This document shows, piece after piece, positions 26,378 through 37,205 of a DNA stretch of 64,000 nt; position 1 is the first letter of the stretch; every line of letters starts with the position of its first letter. The position numbers and the translations under genes were made by a program. Source of the DNA: Tsukamurella pulmonis (GTDB lineage Bacteria; Actinomycetota; Actinomycetes; Mycobacteriales; Mycobacteriaceae); the NCBI RefSeq assembly GCF_900103175.1, contig NZ_FNLF01000002.1:2060136-2124135 (forward strand), in the 5' to 3' direction. The notes under the pieces are model-generated. The model was given only the letters and a program-made list of their open reading frames with translations, made no database searches and was not told the origin of the DNA.

Positions 26378-29300
26378 TCAGGTCAGGGCGGCGATCGCGG
26401 CCAGCACCTTCTTCTCGGAGACGGAGCCCACCGTGCCCAGTGACTGGGCGAACAGGCTCACGCGCAGCTCCTCGATCAGCCAGTGCACCTGCTCGAGCCC
26501 CGCATCCCGGCGGTGCTCCGGGAGCGTCTCCAACTTCGCGGTGAGCGCTCCGTACACGCGGTCGAGCACGGCCATCCCGCGGTCGTCGCGATCGAGCGAG
26601 GCGGGCAGTGCCGCCCACCGCGCCGCCGCGCCCGCCGCGTAGCGCGGCAGGTGCTGCAGGTGCACGCCCGGTGTCGCCGCGACGAAGCCGGGGAACAGGA
26701 GCGCGTCCAACTGCTCCGCGATGTCGTCCGCGGCGTCCCGCAGGGCGGGCGGCGCGGAGGCGATGGCGCCGCGCACCTCGGTGGCGGTCGCCACGGCGGT
26801 GGCGACGTTCGCGAAGTTCTGCTGCACGGCCTCGCCGAGGCCCGCACGCACGGTCGCGGTGAGTCGCGTGAACTCCTCGGGCGTCCACGCGAAAGCGGCA
26901 GCGGCCCGCAGGTCGGTGATGGCTCGCCGGCGGCAATCGGCGACGAGATCCATCGGGGTCGCGTACGGGCTCTGCGAGAGCGCCAGGCGTTCGCGCTGCC
27001 CCACCGACTGCAGCACCGACTTGTGTGCTCCAGGAAGCACGTTCGCGAGCAGCACATCCAGGCCCGCCCCCATCAGCGCCCGCTGCTCCGGCTCGGCGGC
27101 CACGATCTTGACACCTGCCCGGTCACCGTCGGGATAGAGGGTGCCGAACCCGGTCACCCGGCTGCCCCGGATCTCCGTGTCGACGGTGCGCGGCACGTCG
27201 CCGAGAGTCTGCGCGGTCCACTGCTGCGCCGGCGCCCGCTCGTACGCCCCGGCCCGGTGGGAGAGGTCCTTCTGCACCGCGGCGCCGAGCGTGCGCTTGA
27301 GCGCGTCGAGGTCCTTGCCGGAGCCGAGTACGCGGCCGTCGTCGCCGATCACGGTGAAGGTGACCCGGAGGTGGTCCGGGATCGCGGCGGGGGAGAAGTC
27401 GCCCGCCCGGATCACGGTGCCGGAGAGCTGCGTCAGCTCGCGGGCCAACCCCTCGGCGAGAGGCTCGGCCCGCGGCGTGAGCCGGGCGAGCGCCGCGGCC
27501 GCGAAGTCCGGCGCGGGCACCACCTCACGGCGCAGATGCTTCGGTAGCGACTTGATCAGCGCGATCGCCAGCTCTTCGCGCATCGCGGGTACCAGCCATT
27601 CGAAGCCGTCCGCGCGGACCGTCGCGAGGTCCTTGACGGGGATCCGCGCGGTGACGCCGTCGTCGGCGGCACCCGGTTCGAACCGGTACTTCAGCGGCAC
27701 CTCGATCCGGCCCTGCAACCACGAGGTGGGGTACGCGTCGGCCGTGACGTCGGCGGCGCCGTCGGAGAGGAGATCGTCGGCGGTGAAGTCCAGGAGGTCC
27801 GGCTCGGTCCGCGAGGCCTTCTTCCACCACGAGTCGAAGTGCCGGGCCGAGACGATGCCTTCGGGGACCCGACGGTCGTAGAAGTCGAACAGGCCGTCCT
27901 CGTCGACGACGAGGTCGCGGCGGCGTGCCTTGTCCTCGAGGTACTCCGCGTCGTCGAGCAGGGCCCGGTTGCGGGCGAAGAAGCCGTGACGCGTGCGCCA
28001 TTCGCCCTGCACGAGAGCGTGGCGCAGGAAGATCTCCCGCGCTGCCTGCGGATCGATGCGGCCGAAGTTGACCGTGCGATCGGCGACGAGCGGCACGCCG
28101 AACAGCGTGACCCGCTCCTTCGCGAGCACGGCTTCGCGCTTGGTCGACCACTGCGGCTCGGAGTAGTGGTGCTTGGCGAGCGGCCCCGCCAACTTCTCCG
28201 CCCACTCCGGTTCGATCTTCGCGACGGTGCGGGCGAACAGTCGTGAGGTCTCGACCAGCTCGCCCGCCATGACGAACCGCGGCGGCTTCTTCGACAGCGC
28301 TGATCCGGGGAACACCATGAACTTCGCGCCCCGCGCGCCGAGGAACTCGCGACCGTCGGTCTCGCGCAGGCCGATCTGCGACAGCAGGCCCGAGAGCATC
28401 GCCTGGTGGATGAGGTCGGGAGACGGTGCCGGTTCCCGGCCCAGCGATTCGACCTTCCAGCCCAGATCCCGGCAGATCTGCCGGAGCTGGCCCTGCAGGT
28501 CCTGCCACTCGCGGATCCGTACGTAATGCAGGAACTCCCGCTGGCACTCGCGGCGGAAGGCGCTCGAACTGAGCTCGGCCCGGCGGTCACCGAGGTGACG
28601 CCACAGGTTGAGGTAGGAGAGGAAGTCGGAGGTGGGGTCGGCGAAGCGGGCGTGCTTCTCGTCCGCCGCCTGACGGTGCTCGGCCGGCCGCTCCCGCACG
28701 TCCTGGATGGACAGGCCGGCGACGATGACGAGCACCTCGGGCAGCACGCCGAACTCGCGCGCGGCGACCAGCATTCGTGCCATGCGCGGATCGACGGGCA
28801 GGTCCGCCAGCTGGCGGCCGACGGCGGTGAGCCGCTTGTGTCCCTCCTTGGCATCCTCCAGGGCACCGAGCTCCTCGAGCAGGGCGGTGCCGTCGCGGAC
28901 CGCGCGCTCGTCGGGCGGCTGCACGAACGGGAAGGCCGAGACCTCGCCCAGCTCCAGCGCCGTCATGGACAGGATGACCGAGGCCAGGTTGGTGCGCAGG
29001 ATCTCCGGATCGGTGTACACCGGTCGGGCGTCGAAGTCGTCCTCGGAGTACAGGCGGATCGCGATGCCGTCGGACGTGCGGCCGCAGCGCCCGGAGCGCT
29101 GCTGCGCGGAGGCCTGCGAGACCGGCTCGATCGGCAGCCGCTGCACCTTGGTGCGCAGGGAGTACCGCGAGATGCGCGCCGTGCCCGTGTCCACCACGTA
29201 CTTGATCCCCGGCACGGTGAGCGAGGTCTCGGCGACGTTGGTGGACAGCACGATCCGGCGCCCGGTGTGCGGTGCGAAGACGCGGTGCTGCTCGGCGGAG

Positions 29301-30334
29301 GACAGGCGCGCGTACAGCGGCAGGATCTCCGTTCCGGGTTTGACGTGCGCGGTCAGCGCCTCGGCGGCGTCACGGATCTCGCGCTCGCCCGAGAGGAAGA
29401 CCAGCACGTCGCCGGGGGCCTCGCGGGAGAGCTCGTCCACCGCGTGCACGATGCCGGTCACCTGGTCGAGCGGCTCGGTGTCGTCGGTCATCTCGTCGAG
29501 CGGGCGGTAGCGGATCTCGACCGGGTAGGTGCGGCCGCTCACCTCGATGACGGGGGCGGGCGTCCCGTCGGGCCGCGCGAAGTGCGCCGCGAACCGGTCC
29601 GGCTCGATCGTGGCCGAGGTGACGATGACCTTGAGATCGGGACGACGCGGCAGGATCTGCCGCAGGTAGCCGAGGAGGAAGTCGATGTTGAGGCTGCGCT
29701 CGTGCGCCTCGTCGATGATGATCGTGTCGTAATCGCGCAGCAGCCGGTCGCGCGTCAGCTCGCGCAGCAGGATGCCGTCGGTCATCAGCTTCACCGACGT
29801 CTTCGGTGAGACCTTGTCGGTGAAGCGCACGGCGTAGCCGACCGCGTCGCCCAGCTCCGTGCCGGTCTCCTCGGCGATGCGCTCGGCCACGCTGCGCGCG
29901 GCGAGGCGCCGGGGCTGGGTGTGCCCGATCATGCCCCGTACGCCGCGGCCGAGTTCCAGGCAGATCTTCGGCAGCTGCGTGGTCTTGCCCGAGCCGGTCT
30001 CGCCCGCGAGGATGATCACCTGGTTCTCGCTGATGGCCTTGGCGATCTCGTCGCGTCGCGCGCTCACCGGCAGGTTCTCGGGATAGACGATGGCGGGGAC
30101 AGCCGCCTTCCGTTCGGCGAAGCGATCCTGCGCGGCCGCGACATCGCGGGTCAGGCGCGCCAGGTCGGAGTCCTTGGCGCGCTTGAGCTTCCCGCGCAGA
30201 CGTGTTTCGTCGCGCAGGCTCACGGTGGGCGCGGCGTCGGTGCCGAGCGCGGCGTACAGATCACGCTTCGTGGAAGGGCGGAGCTGCGCCTCGTCTGCGC
30301 CGCGGGGTGCGGTGCGCGTCTCGTGCTCAGTCAT
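26378..30334 (-). CDS. hrpA: ATP-dependent RNA helicase HrpA
   Basis: The very large DEAH helicase has 1318 residues. Walker A is ILAGETGSGKTTQLP, motif II IIIDEAHERSLNIDFLLGYL, motif III VTSATIEPDRF, motif VI QRSGRCGRTSDG. HA2/ratchet and OB domains and a long DUF3418 C-terminal half follow, all full length for HrpA. It acts in mRNA processing and collided-ribosome rescue. The start is 18 bases from the divergent aminotransferase start; on the minus strand TAAAAT ends seven bases before the ATG. Confidence 0.96.
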   Translation of the reverse strand: MTEHETRTAPRGADEAQLRPSTKRDLYAALGTDAAPTVSLRDETRLRGKLKRAKDSDLARLTRDVAAAQDRFAERKAAVPAIVYPENLPVSARRDEIAKAISENQVIILAGETGSGKTTQLPKICLELGRGVRGMIGHTQPRRLAARSVAERIAEETGTELGDAVGYAVRFTDKVSPKTSVKLMTDGILLRELTRDRLLRDYDTIIIDEAHERSLNIDFLLGYLRQILPRRPDLKVIVTSATIEPDRFAAHFARPDGTPAPVIEVSGRTYPVEIRYRPLDEMTDDTEPLDQVTGIVHAVDELSREAPGDVLVFLSGEREIRDAAEALTAHVKPGTEILPLYARLSSAEQHRVFAPHTGRRIVLSTNVAETSLTVPGIKYVVDTGTARISRYSLRTKVQRLPIEPVSQASAQQRSGRCGRTSDGIAIRLYSEDDFDARPVYTDPEILRTNLASVILSMTALELGEVSAFPFVQPPDERAVRDGTALLEELGALEDAKEGHKRLTAVGRQLADLPVDPRMARMLVAAREFGVLPEVLVIVAGLSIQDVRERPAEHRQAADEKHARFADPTSDFLSYLNLWRHLGDRRAELSSSAFRRECQREFLHYVRIREWQDLQGQLRQICRDLGWKVESLGREPAPSPDLIHQAMLSGLLSQIGLRETDGREFLGARGAKFMVFPGSALSKKPPRFVMAGELVETSRLFARTVAKIEPEWAEKLAGPLAKHHYSEPQWSTKREAVLAKERVTLFGVPLVADRTVNFGRIDPQAAREIFLRHALVQGEWRTRHGFFARNRALLDDAEYLEDKARRRDLVVDEDGLFDFYDRRVPEGIVSARHFDSWWKKASRTEPDLLDFTADDLLSDGAADVTADAYPTSWLQGRIEVPLKYRFEPGAADDGVTARIPVKDLATVRADGFEWLVPAMREELAIALIKSLPKHLRREVVPAPDFAAAALARLTPRAEPLAEGLARELTQLSGTVIRAGDFSPAAIPDHLRVTFTVIGDDGRVLGSGKDLDALKRTLGAAVQKDLSHRAGAYERAPAQQWTAQTLGDVPRTVDTEIRGSRVTGFGTLYPDGDRAGVKIVAAEPEQRALMGAGLDVLLANVLPGAHKSVLQSVGQRERLALSQSPYATPMDLVADCRRRAITDLRAAAAFAWTPEEFTRLTATVRAGLGEAVQQNFANVATAVATATEVRGAIASAPPALRDAADDIAEQLDALLFPGFVAATPGVHLQHLPRYAAGAAARWAALPASLDRDDRGMAVLDRVYGALTAKLETLPEHRRDAGLEQVHWLIEELRVSLFAQSLGTVGSVSEKKVLAAIAALT

Positions 30335-30340
30335 TTGCTC

Positions 30341-30347
30341 TATTTTA
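30341..30347. promoter_or_regulatory. Shared bidirectional -10 element of hrpA and the aminotransferase
   Basis: The heptamer TATTTTA gives TATTTT on the plus strand (30341-30346, six bases before the ATG at 30353) and TAAAAT on the minus strand (30347-30342, seven bases before the hrpA ATG at 30334). Both are TANNNT hexamers, and both would place transcription starts at the start codons. The whole gap is only 18 bases. Confidence 0.72.
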
Positions 30348-30352
30348 GGCCT

Positions 30353-31606
30353 ATGAGCGGACAGGGACCCACGACCTCATCGGCACTCTGGCACGGCTTC
30401 GCGGACATGGGCGCCGTGGAGCGGGACGGAGCCTTCGTCTTCGCCCGCGGCGAGGGCGCCCACGTCTTCGACACCGATGGCAATCGCTATCTGGATGCGA
30501 CGGCCGGACTGTGGTTCGCCAACGTCGGCCACGGACGCGCGGAGGTCGCCGACGCGGTGCGCGATCAGCTGCTCAAGGTGGCGCACGTGACCGGCTTCGG
30601 CGACGCCGCCACCGACACCACCGTCGCCCTCGCGAACCGCCTGCAGGCCATCGCACCGGTGGCGGGCAGCAAGATCTTCTTCACCTCGGGTGGCTCCGAC
30701 TCGGTCGACTCGGCGATCAAGCTGGCCCGGCGCTACTGGCAGGAGCAGGGCCGGCCCGGGAAGAAGCTGATCGTCGGCCGCTCGAACGCCTACCACGGCA
30801 TGCACGTCGGCGGCACCAGCCTGGGCGGCATCCCGGTGAACGCCGAGGGCTACGGCGGCGTGCTCTTCGACGACACCGCCACCGTCGCGTGGGACGACGC
30901 GAAGGAGCTCCTGGGCCTCATCGAGCGCGTCGGCGCCGAGTCGATCGCGGCGTTCGTCGCCGAGCCCGTGATCGGCGCCGGCGGACTGCTGCCCCCGCCG
31001 GAGGGCTACCTGCGCGAGGTGCGCGACATCTGCCGCGAGCACGACGTGTTGTTCATCGCCGATGAGGTCATCACGGGATTCGGCCGCATCGGCGGCGCGT
31101 GGTTCGCGTCGAGCCGGTTCGACCTGCAGCCCGATCTGATGACCACGGCGAAGGGACTGACCAGCGGCTACGTCCCGATGGGTGCGCTGTTCGTGGCGCC
31201 GCACGTCGCGGAGCCCTTCTACTCCGGCGGCGTGTGGTGGCGGCACGGCTACACCTACGGTGGGCACGCGGCCGCGGCGGCCGCGTCGATGGCGGTCCTG
31301 GACATCATGGAGCGGGAGAACCTGCTGGCCGAGGCGCTGCGGCTGGAGAGCACGCTCCTGCGGGAGCTGTCGACCCTGGCCGATCACCCCAAGGTCAAGG
31401 ACGTCCGGGGCGGCGTCGGCGCCGTCGCGGGCGTGCAGCTGCACGAGCCCGCGGAGGCGATGGCGATGGTGAAGAAGCTGCGGGCGCAGGGGGTCTCCGG
31501 TCGCGCCGCCGGGCTGGGGACGCTGCAGTACTCGCCCGCGCTGGTCACCACGGACGAGCAGGTCGCCGAGATCGCCGCGGCCACCCGGCGGGCACTCGAC
31601 GCCTGA
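30353..31606 (+). CDS. Class III pyridoxal-phosphate aminotransferase
   Basis: The 417-residue protein has the class III fold: GLWFANVGHGRAEVADAV, FFTSGGSDSVDSAIKLARRYW (PLP phosphate loop), SNAYHGMHVGGTSLGG, IADEVITGFGRIG (PLP Asp) and TTAKGLTSGYVPMGA (Schiff-base Lys). It resembles the mycobacterial Rv3329-type enzymes, which are omega-amino acid or diamine:pyruvate transaminases; the amino donor cannot be assigned. ATG at 30353 is leaderless, using the shared -10. The DUF485-symporter operon follows on the same strand after 97 bases. Confidence 0.93.
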   Translation: MSGQGPTTSSALWHGFADMGAVERDGAFVFARGEGAHVFDTDGNRYLDATAGLWFANVGHGRAEVADAVRDQLLKVAHVTGFGDAATDTTVALANRLQAIAPVAGSKIFFTSGGSDSVDSAIKLARRYWQEQGRPGKKLIVGRSNAYHGMHVGGTSLGGIPVNAEGYGGVLFDDTATVAWDDAKELLGLIERVGAESIAAFVAEPVIGAGGLLPPPEGYLREVRDICREHDVLFIADEVITGFGRIGGAWFASSRFDLQPDLMTTAKGLTSGYVPMGALFVAPHVAEPFYSGGVWWRHGYTYGGHAAAAAASMAVLDIMERENLLAEALRLESTLLRELSTLADHPKVKDVRGGVGAVAGVQLHEPAEAMAMVKKLRAQGVSGRAAGLGTLQYSPALVTTDEQVAEIAAATRRALDA

Positions 31607-36060: not shown

Positions 36061-36789
36061 TCAGCGCCGGGTCCGCTTGGCGGACTTGCCCTTCGCAGGG
36101 CCCTGCTTCTTGCCGGCGGCGGCCCGCGCCGCCTGCTTGGCGAGGGTCTTCTCCCGCGCCGTGCGCTTGGGCGCGGGCTCCGAGTTCCCGCGCGAGGATC
36201 CCGCCTTCCGGCCGCGGACGATGCCGATGAAGTCGGCGACCCGATCCGACTGCTCGCCCGCCGGCACGGCGAGGGCGACGGGCGACGGCGGCGCGTCGGT
36301 GATCGGCCGGAACGTCAGGTCCCGCCGGTGGTGCAGCCGGGCGAGCGACTGCGGCACGAGGAGCACGCCCAGCCCCGCCGCGACGAGCTCGACGGCCGCC
36401 TCGGTGTTCTCGGGGCGGTGCTCGATCGGCGTTCCGGGCGCCTCCGCCCAGTACAGGGCGTCGTCGAGCGGCGCGATCGTCGGCTCGTCCTCGAGGTCCT
36501 GCGTGGTCAGCTCGTCCGCGGCCGCGGTGTGGTGCTCCTTCGGCACGAGCGCCACCACCTGCTCCTCGTAGAGGGTGATGGTCGCGAGGCCGGTCGTGGG
36601 GGTGGGCAGCCGCACCAACGCGAGGTCGACGGCGCCCTCCCGCACCGCGTCGGCCGCATCGGCCGCCGCCACGGGCACGAGCTCGAGCCGGACGTCCGGA
36701 TGCCGCTCATCCCAGATGCGCGCCCACTTGGCGGGCGTGGCGCCGGGTACGTAGCCGAGCCGCAGAACGGGCGGGAGCGAGGAGGTCAC
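36061..36789 (-). CDS. LysR effector-domain protein lacking an HTH, with basic C-terminal tail
   Basis: The GTG start gives 242 residues beginning directly with the LysR substrate-binding fold (LRLGYVPGATPAKWARIWDERHPDVRLELV, LALVRLPTPTTGLATITLYEEQVVALVP, VAAGLGVLLVPQSLA). No DNA-binding domain precedes it: the upstream 29 bases are non-coding and shared with DUF5997. The C-terminal 45 residues are rich in Lys/Arg (AREKTLAKQAARAAAGKKQG). TAACCT lies six bases before the GTG. It may be a co-regulator working with the divergent DUF5997 protein. Confidence 0.85.
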   Translation of the reverse strand: MTSSLPPVLRLGYVPGATPAKWARIWDERHPDVRLELVPVAAADAADAVREGAVDLALVRLPTPTTGLATITLYEEQVVALVPKEHHTAAADELTTQDLEDEPTIAPLDDALYWAEAPGTPIEHRPENTEAAVELVAAGLGVLLVPQSLARLHHRRDLTFRPITDAPPSPVALAVPAGEQSDRVADFIGIVRGRKAGSSRGNSEPAPKRTAREKTLAKQAARAAAGKKQGPAKGKSAKRTRR

Positions 36790-36795
36790 TCCTGG

Positions 36796-36811
36796 AGGTT
36801 ACCGATAGGCT
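36796..36811. promoter_or_regulatory. Divergent leaderless promoters of the LysR-effector and DUF5997 genes
   Basis: On the minus strand TAACCT (36801-36796) is six bases before the GTG at 36789; on the plus strand TAGGCT (36806-36811) is seven bases before the ATG at 36819. The gap between start codons is only 29 bases, so the promoters must interfere or be co-regulated. Confidence 0.6.
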
Positions 36812-36818
36812 GGCACCC

Positions 36819-37205
36819 ATGAGCAGGCAGAACACGCAGTCCATGAAACCGGCCACCGCGGCGAAGAAGCTGGACGTGTATCTGCCCGCGACCCCGGCGG
36901 AGTTCCAGGAATCGACCATCACCCGCGCCGAACTCGCCGCGCTGCAGGATGATCCGCCGCAGTGGCTCAAGGACCTGCGTAAGAACGGCCCGCATCCGAA
37001 GAACCTCGTGGCGGCCAAGCTCGGCGTCTCCATCTCGGGCCTCGCCCGCGGCGGCGTCGAGGACGCGCTGACCACCGAGCGGATCGACGCCCTCATCGCC
37101 GAGAATCCCGATTGGCTGGTCACCGAACGCGCCGGGTACCAGACGGTGCTGCGCGAGGAGCGCAGGGTGAAGTCGCTGCGCGAGGAGCGTGCCCGCCGGC
37201 AATGA
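36819..37205 (+). CDS. DUF5997 family protein
   Basis: The 128-residue protein is well conserved in Actinobacteria (KKLDVYLPATPAEFQESTITRAELAALQ, then PPQWLKDLRKNGPHPKNLVAAKLGVSISGLARGG). The segment KNLVAAKLGVSISGLARG has the spacing of a helix-turn-helix (Ala-Ala before LGVS, then a second helix), so it may bind DNA; this is inference. It is always worth reading together with the divergent LysR effector protein 29 bases away. The C-terminus is highly charged. Confidence 0.8.
   Translation: MSRQNTQSMKPATAAKKLDVYLPATPAEFQESTITRAELAALQDDPPQWLKDLRKNGPHPKNLVAAKLGVSISGLARGGVEDALTTERIDALIAENPDWLVTERAGYQTVLREERRVKSLREERARRQ

Follow-up and report, generated by a model that had tools for sequence, protein, structure and literature searches.

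The 18 bases between hrpA and a divergently transcribed class-III aminotransferase gene in Tsukamurella very probably form a bidirectional promoter of the housekeeping type, in which one shared heptamer would serve both genes and both messages would be leaderless or nearly so. In the mechanism we propose, a single TANNNTA offers the sigma factor a TANNNT -10 element on each strand, offset by one base, so polymerase could load in either orientation. The aminotransferase transcript would then begin at the A of its ATG and the hrpA transcript at the A of its own or one base earlier, which would leave both messages with essentially no leader. We infer that a sigma-A-type polymerase uses the heptamer both ways, and the start sites in Table 1 are predictions from spacing. 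The heptamer, its spacing, its uniqueness in the window (the whole 64 kb stretch of DNA analysed, about 70% GC, from a host genome of 4.78 Mb), its conservation and its membership of a class that recurs in the genome can be read directly in the DNA. The preliminary description of this region had proposed a shared, nearly symmetric -10 element for two leaderless divergent genes, and as an inference from sequence that proposal is supported here, with hrpA allowed to be near-leaderless.

Table 1. Coordinates in the window of the hrpA/aminotransferase region and its predicted promoter elements
Feature	Position	Strand	Remark
hrpA, DEAH-box RNA helicase	26378..30334	-	ATG start at 30334
Class-III (PLP) aminotransferase, omega-transaminase type	30353..31606	+	ATG start at 30353
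Intergenic region, 18 bases: one putative shared -10 and two discriminators	30335..30352		sequence TTGCTCTATTTTAGGCCT
Shared heptamer TATTTTA	30341..30347		TAGTTTA in 13/16 genus genomes
Candidate aminotransferase -10 hexamer TATTTT	30341..30346	+	ends 6 bases before ATG
Candidate hrpA -10 hexamer TAAAAT	30342..30347	-	ends 7 bases before ATG
Predicted aminotransferase transcription start	30353	+	A of ATG; from spacing, geometry per PMC10268837
Predicted hrpA transcription start	30334..30335	-	A of ATG, or the A preceding it; from spacing

The hrpA product matches two HrpA equivalog models above cut-off, scores 1731.2 bits against a cut-off of 722.75 for NCBIfam TIGR01967 (DEAH_box_HrpA), and also matches Pfam DUF3418 and OB_NTP_bind. 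Its neighbor matches Pfam PF00202 with 286.5 bits, none of the best 25 of 69 matched NCBIfam models reached its cut-off, and the closest solved structures are transaminases such as "Aminotransferase TR2" and a putrescine aminotransferase; we assign it to class III with an uncertain substrate. Gene starts are heuristic, coming from a caller based on our own codon model, which placed the aminotransferase start 54 bases further in, at 30407 instead of 30353; protein identity begins at residue 1 of the longer form in 13 of 14 genus orthologues outside the window's genome.

As previously described, the start codons lie 18 bases apart, TTGCTCTATTTTAGGCCT being flanked by CAT (the hrpA start on the minus strand, 30332-30334) and ATG (30353-30355), and TATTTTA contains a TANNNT hexamer on each strand. 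The opposite-strand hexamers, 30341-30346 (+) and 30347-30342 (-), overlap with an offset of one base and have their key bases in common. This gap holds the only TANNNTA in the 64 kb window, against 52 TANNNT on both strands and 28 copies of the control ATNNNAT. Over the 300 bases upstream of each start, no TANNNT is found apart from those of the heptamer. The distances of 6 and 7 bases between its hexamers and the two start codons match the spacing of roughly 6-8 bases between TANNNT and start codon that marks leaderless genes of the mycobacterial type. Neither hexamer is preceded by a TGN extension, inspection by eye of the aminotransferase 5' codons revealed no evident canonical -35 for hrpA, and folding 60 bases at each 5' end gave no more structure than in shuffled sequence, with z of 1.75 and 0.65.

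If a spacing of 6 bases between -10 and start applies to both genes, the hrpA message would begin at A30335, one base before its ATG, and the two predicted start sites would be exactly 18 bases apart, or 19 should hrpA start directly at its ATG. The earlier prediction that both messages start at the A of ATG is thus kept for the aminotransferase (30353) and would shift by one base for hrpA. Were hrpA to start at 30335, the -18T of each strand would lie opposite the +1A of the other: there is a T at 30335 on the plus strand, and the partner base of A30353 is the -18T of the hrpA promoter.

The predicted geometry is the commonest one among known bacterial bidirectional promoters. Bidirectional promoters in E. 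coli arise from the symmetry of the -10 element (Warman et al. 2021, via PMC12825309 and PMC10268837), with overlapping -10s on opposite strands, as in the hrpA/aminotransferase gap. Start sites of the known class are 7-25 bp apart and typically 18 (Warman et al. 2026, PMC12825309; PMC10268837), to be compared with the 18 or 19 bp predicted here; in E. coli 18 bp is the commonest distance, with 10 and 23 also frequent (PMC12825309), and in Salmonella the main distance is likewise 18 bp (PMC10268837). At 18 bp, -11A and -7T form reciprocal pairs, and the base opposite +1A on one strand serves as -18T on the other (PMC10268837); with starts at A30353 and A30335 all of these coincidences would hold in Tsukamurella. 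The difference from the bidirectional promoters described in these sources is that the start sites are predicted to lie at, or one base from, the start codons, so that the aminotransferase start codon would itself supply the -18T of hrpA and any leader would be at most one base long.

The other half of the comparison comes from mycobacteria. In M. tuberculosis, 26% of genes with a primary start are leaderless, and the mycobacterial leaderless promoters have a TANNNT -10, as does the Tsukamurella gap, with no conserved -35 reported in the 2013 study (Cortes et al. 2013, PMC3898074; PMC10937400). Close divergent promoters are called common in mycobacteria, and Rv1129c/Rv1130 form a divergent leaderless pair (PMC3898074; Ju et al. 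2024, PMC10937400). However, the passages on mycobacterial promoters in these two papers describe no -10 common to both genes, which is what the Tsukamurella gap would have, and for leaderless-rich actinobacteria searches of an open-access library turned up no paper on a double-leaderless bidirectional form.

Conservation in close relatives, which had been put forward as a test of the shared element, bears it out within the genus. TA[T/G]TTTA, with TANNNT on both strands, is kept in all 16 Tsukamurella genomes (TATTTTA in 3, TAGTTTA in 13), and it varies solely at position 3, a base left free by both TANNNT hexamers. The gap is 18, 19 or 20 bases in all 16 (15 read from aminotransferase loci, that of G007 from its hrpA contig), with the hexamers ending 7-8 bases before hrpA, whose start codon is GTG in G007 and G008, and 6-7 before the aminotransferase. 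As a measure of how freely the DNA otherwise changes, just 6 of the 150 fourfold sites checked in the aminotransferase show no change across 15 genomes, and of the 10 sites that are A/T in G000 none is invariant. The hrpA gene of G014, 83% complete, falls into two pieces in different open frames (L073; G014:C1:1812042-1813821), possibly through an assembly or sequencing frameshift.

Beyond the genus, the neighborhood and the shared element part ways. Among the best 80 of 289 relatives, aminotransferase identity is 86-97% to ten Tsukamurella records and 68-74% to other genera, which places the window in Tsukamurella; the listing may omit the window's own record. A divergent hrpA lies within 2.5 kb upstream of the aminotransferase in 68 of these 80; the other 12 have no hrpA in reach, some of them at contig ends. 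The preliminary description had called the tie between an RNA helicase and an aminotransferase unusual, which this frequency contradicts; the part specific to Tsukamurella is the shared element, present in 10/10 Tsukamurella pairs and in 0/58 of the other divergent pairs. In those 58 the aligned gene starts are 105 bases to 1.7 kb apart, more than 700 bases in 39. A TANNNT lies 7-11 bases before a candidate hrpA start in 66 of the 68 divergent loci and, outside Tsukamurella, at 9-11 bases in 56 of 58; a second set of non-genus hrpA loci has it 8-12 bases before the start in 13 of 15 (15 loci fetched from 21 non-genus genomes with a match, at least one of which, L047 = L297, is also in the 68-locus set).

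This distribution suggests that both the pairing and a start-proximal hrpA -10 are old, the shared element having been found in Tsukamurella alone. It also bears on a rival explanation, in which the -10 serves hrpA alone, TATTTT arises as a by-product of the partial symmetry of the motif, and the aminotransferase depends on a different sigma factor or on a separate promoter within hrpA. TANNNT is partly self-complementary, so that one hexamer and a single further base create a hexamer on the other strand; the -10 that is widely conserved is the one near hrpA; and of the 58 aminotransferases that lie beside hrpA outside Tsukamurella, 44 lack a TANNNT 5-12 bases before a candidate start. If the second hexamer were such a by-product, however, the first T of the heptamer, which the aminotransferase hexamer alone needs, would hardly be kept in every genus genome, nor would the aminotransferase ATG stay at its short distance from the hexamer while the flank varies, and the 300 bases upstream offer no other TANNNT. 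We consider use by hrpA alone improbable. With use by both genes, the economical reading, drawn from comparison of loci rather than from a formal reconstruction, would be that the hrpA -10 is the older and that its reverse face was taken up in the Tsukamurella line by the aminotransferase, whose start came to lie 18-20 bases from that of hrpA.

To see what promoters look like in the genome at large, we sampled 1.264 Mb (60 roughly evenly spaced 20 kb stretches and the window), in which our caller found 1250 genes, and for 1222 of them measured the distance from the end of a TANNNT to an in-frame ATG or GTG near the called start. TANNNT ends 6, 7 and 8 bases before the start in 144, 121 and 32 genes, compared with 2 to 21 genes at any other single distance between 0 and 39. 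The leaderless-type signal is therefore a genome-wide property, and a facing pair of leaderless-type starts is not strange in itself. The arrangement of such pairs is more particular. In the same sample, 35 of 201 divergent pairs have a leaderless-type -10 at a candidate start of both genes. Four of these, hrpA/aminotransferase included, are at offset -1, with start codons 18-19 apart and a shared TANNNTA, and seven are at offset +4, with start codons 23-25 apart and the pattern ANNNTANNNT, in which the central TA is shared. These two registers take 11 of the 35 double-leaderless pairs, and 11 of the 17 whose starts are 10-45 bases apart. Redrawing the gaps from the smoothed gap distribution gave a mean of 0.25 such pairs and a maximum of 3 in 20000 draws, a null that copies incompletely the freedom of the register test to choose among start codons up to 90 bases from the called one. 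No pair fell in the two registers with either of two control hexamers or at either of two wrong distances; since these controls gave no more than one double pair overall, they control weakly for register and test the leaderless signal better.

Counted another way, 4 of the 201 divergent pairs, again including hrpA/aminotransferase, have a TANNNTA in common with a start codon 4-7 bases away on each side, and neither the control ATNNNAT nor TANNNTA at three sets of wrong distances occurs in any of the 201. A leaderless-type -10 is present in any case in 86 of the 201 genes on one side and in 80 of the 201 on the other, so the cheapness of a second hexamer, at one extra base, does not by itself account for the excess. 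Replication in a second genus (G023) is weak, with 1 of 12 double-leaderless pairs in the +4 register and 0 of 12 in the -1 register. The window holds a second divergent pair (36061-36789, minus strand; 36819-37205, plus strand) with leaderless-type -10s at both starts (36787-36821), in which the starts are 29 bases apart and the hexamers are separate and non-overlapping.

Exact patterns extend the search to whole genomes. The 18-base pattern has four matches in the host genome, all of them between two divergent coding frames as judged by eye from frame length and GC3, and the 23-base pattern has ten, eight of them between divergent coding frames under a fixed criterion. Besides hrpA/aminotransferase, the 18-base matches separate, going by eye from the translations, what we take to be a carboxymuconolactone-decarboxylase-like (CMD-like) gene from a pirin-like gene, clpS from a nicotinate phosphoribosyltransferase-like (NaPRT-like) gene, and a cold-shock-like gene from a small membrane protein. 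The clpS/NaPRT-like gap, ACTGGGTACCCTAGAACC, is letter-identical in 7/7 distinct loci compared (L062, L094, L095, L102, L111, L113, L118). Over the 16 genomes, the 18-, 20- and 23-gap patterns have 62, 26 and 124 matches against 42, 100 and 43 for a backward control, 6 of the 26 being the hrpA/aminotransferase gap itself; over the family, with ATG only, there are 48 matches against 32 for the 18-gap pattern (121 genomes) and 81 against 24 for the 23-gap pattern (101 genomes). We set these raw counts aside as evidence, as they are not uniformly above control. TA is scarcer than AT, so the backward control is not neutral, and we rely instead on position between genes: in a frame check covering 30 of the 48 family 18-gap matches, 14 had coding frames on both sides under the fixed criterion (7/7 in Tsukamurella, 7/23 in other genera). 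The unevenness of the raw counts can also be read in favor of a heptamer that is a chance product of an AT-rich spacer and is used by neither gene. Its conservation throughout the genus, its single occurrence in the window, its fitting distance from both starts and the two preferred registers in the genome sample make coincidence highly implausible.

A further constraint may lie within the aminotransferase itself. In 14 of the 16 genus genomes (G008 was left out for its different start and G007 for having no aminotransferase locus), third-position pairwise identity over codons 1-20 (30353..30412, plus strand) is 0.97 and 0.91 in the two 10-codon bins, the top values among 38 bins, the remaining 36 ranging from 0.59 to 0.90. 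At the protein level these genomes agree at only 4 of the first 10 residues, despite the conserved third positions, and the 5' codons of hrpA diverge across Tsukamurella. The conserved third positions could reflect upstream promoter DNA of hrpA or a signal for leaderless translation. A like tendency is seen at the 5' ends of clpS and the pirin-like gene; it is less clear in the CMD-like gene and lacking in the NaPRT-like gene.

If one heptamer serves both directions, then polymerase bound in one would be expected to block the other, and the preliminary description suggested that transcription of the two genes may therefore be mutually exclusive or stochastic. Its physical premise is sound, as the overlapping hexamers would keep two polymerases from sitting there at once, and E. 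coli promoters of this kind do show repression of one direction when the other is strongly activated (PMC12825309). The functional consequence finds no support in the E. coli work: basal activity was too low for competition at the five bidirectional promoters tested, and interference cut cell-to-cell variation in the example studied (PMC12825309). Nor does either Tsukamurella hexamer have the TGN extension that is linked to higher activity in M. tuberculosis (PMC3898074). On these grounds we rejected mutual exclusion as the leading reading, and a toggle that makes expression of the two genes exclusive or bistable seems to us a long shot. By analogy, the effect of exclusion at the heptamer is probably weak; the two directions are probably independent at basal activity, and we would expect competition only if one were strongly activated. 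In E. coli, HrpA acts to rescue ribosomes that have stalled (Campbell et al. 2025, cited in PMC13159725), and this analysis found no functional link between that role and the aminotransferase.

The hrpA/aminotransferase gap thus appears to belong to an established type of two-way promoter, of which it would be a conserved and very compact case. At 18 bases, with essentially no leader predicted on either side, no further TANNNT in the 300 bases upstream and conservation across the genus, it would offer a clean natural system in which to test such promoters. The outgroups, for their part, suggest a route by which a gene might be brought under the reverse side of a neighboring -10. The preferred gaps between start codons suggest that bidirectional promoters may be readable from DNA alone in leaderless-rich actinobacteria. 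Whether Tsukamurella has a distinct class of double-leaderless bidirectional promoters, with start codons locked about 18-20 or 23-25 apart because the whole gap consists of two interlocked -10 elements, we regard as an even call. If it does, each start codon would be at once its own +1 and part of the opposing promoter, and start-codon spacing alone would reveal bidirectional promoters without RNA data. The first codons of each gene would then double as upstream promoter DNA of the other, which may explain their raised conservation at synonymous sites.
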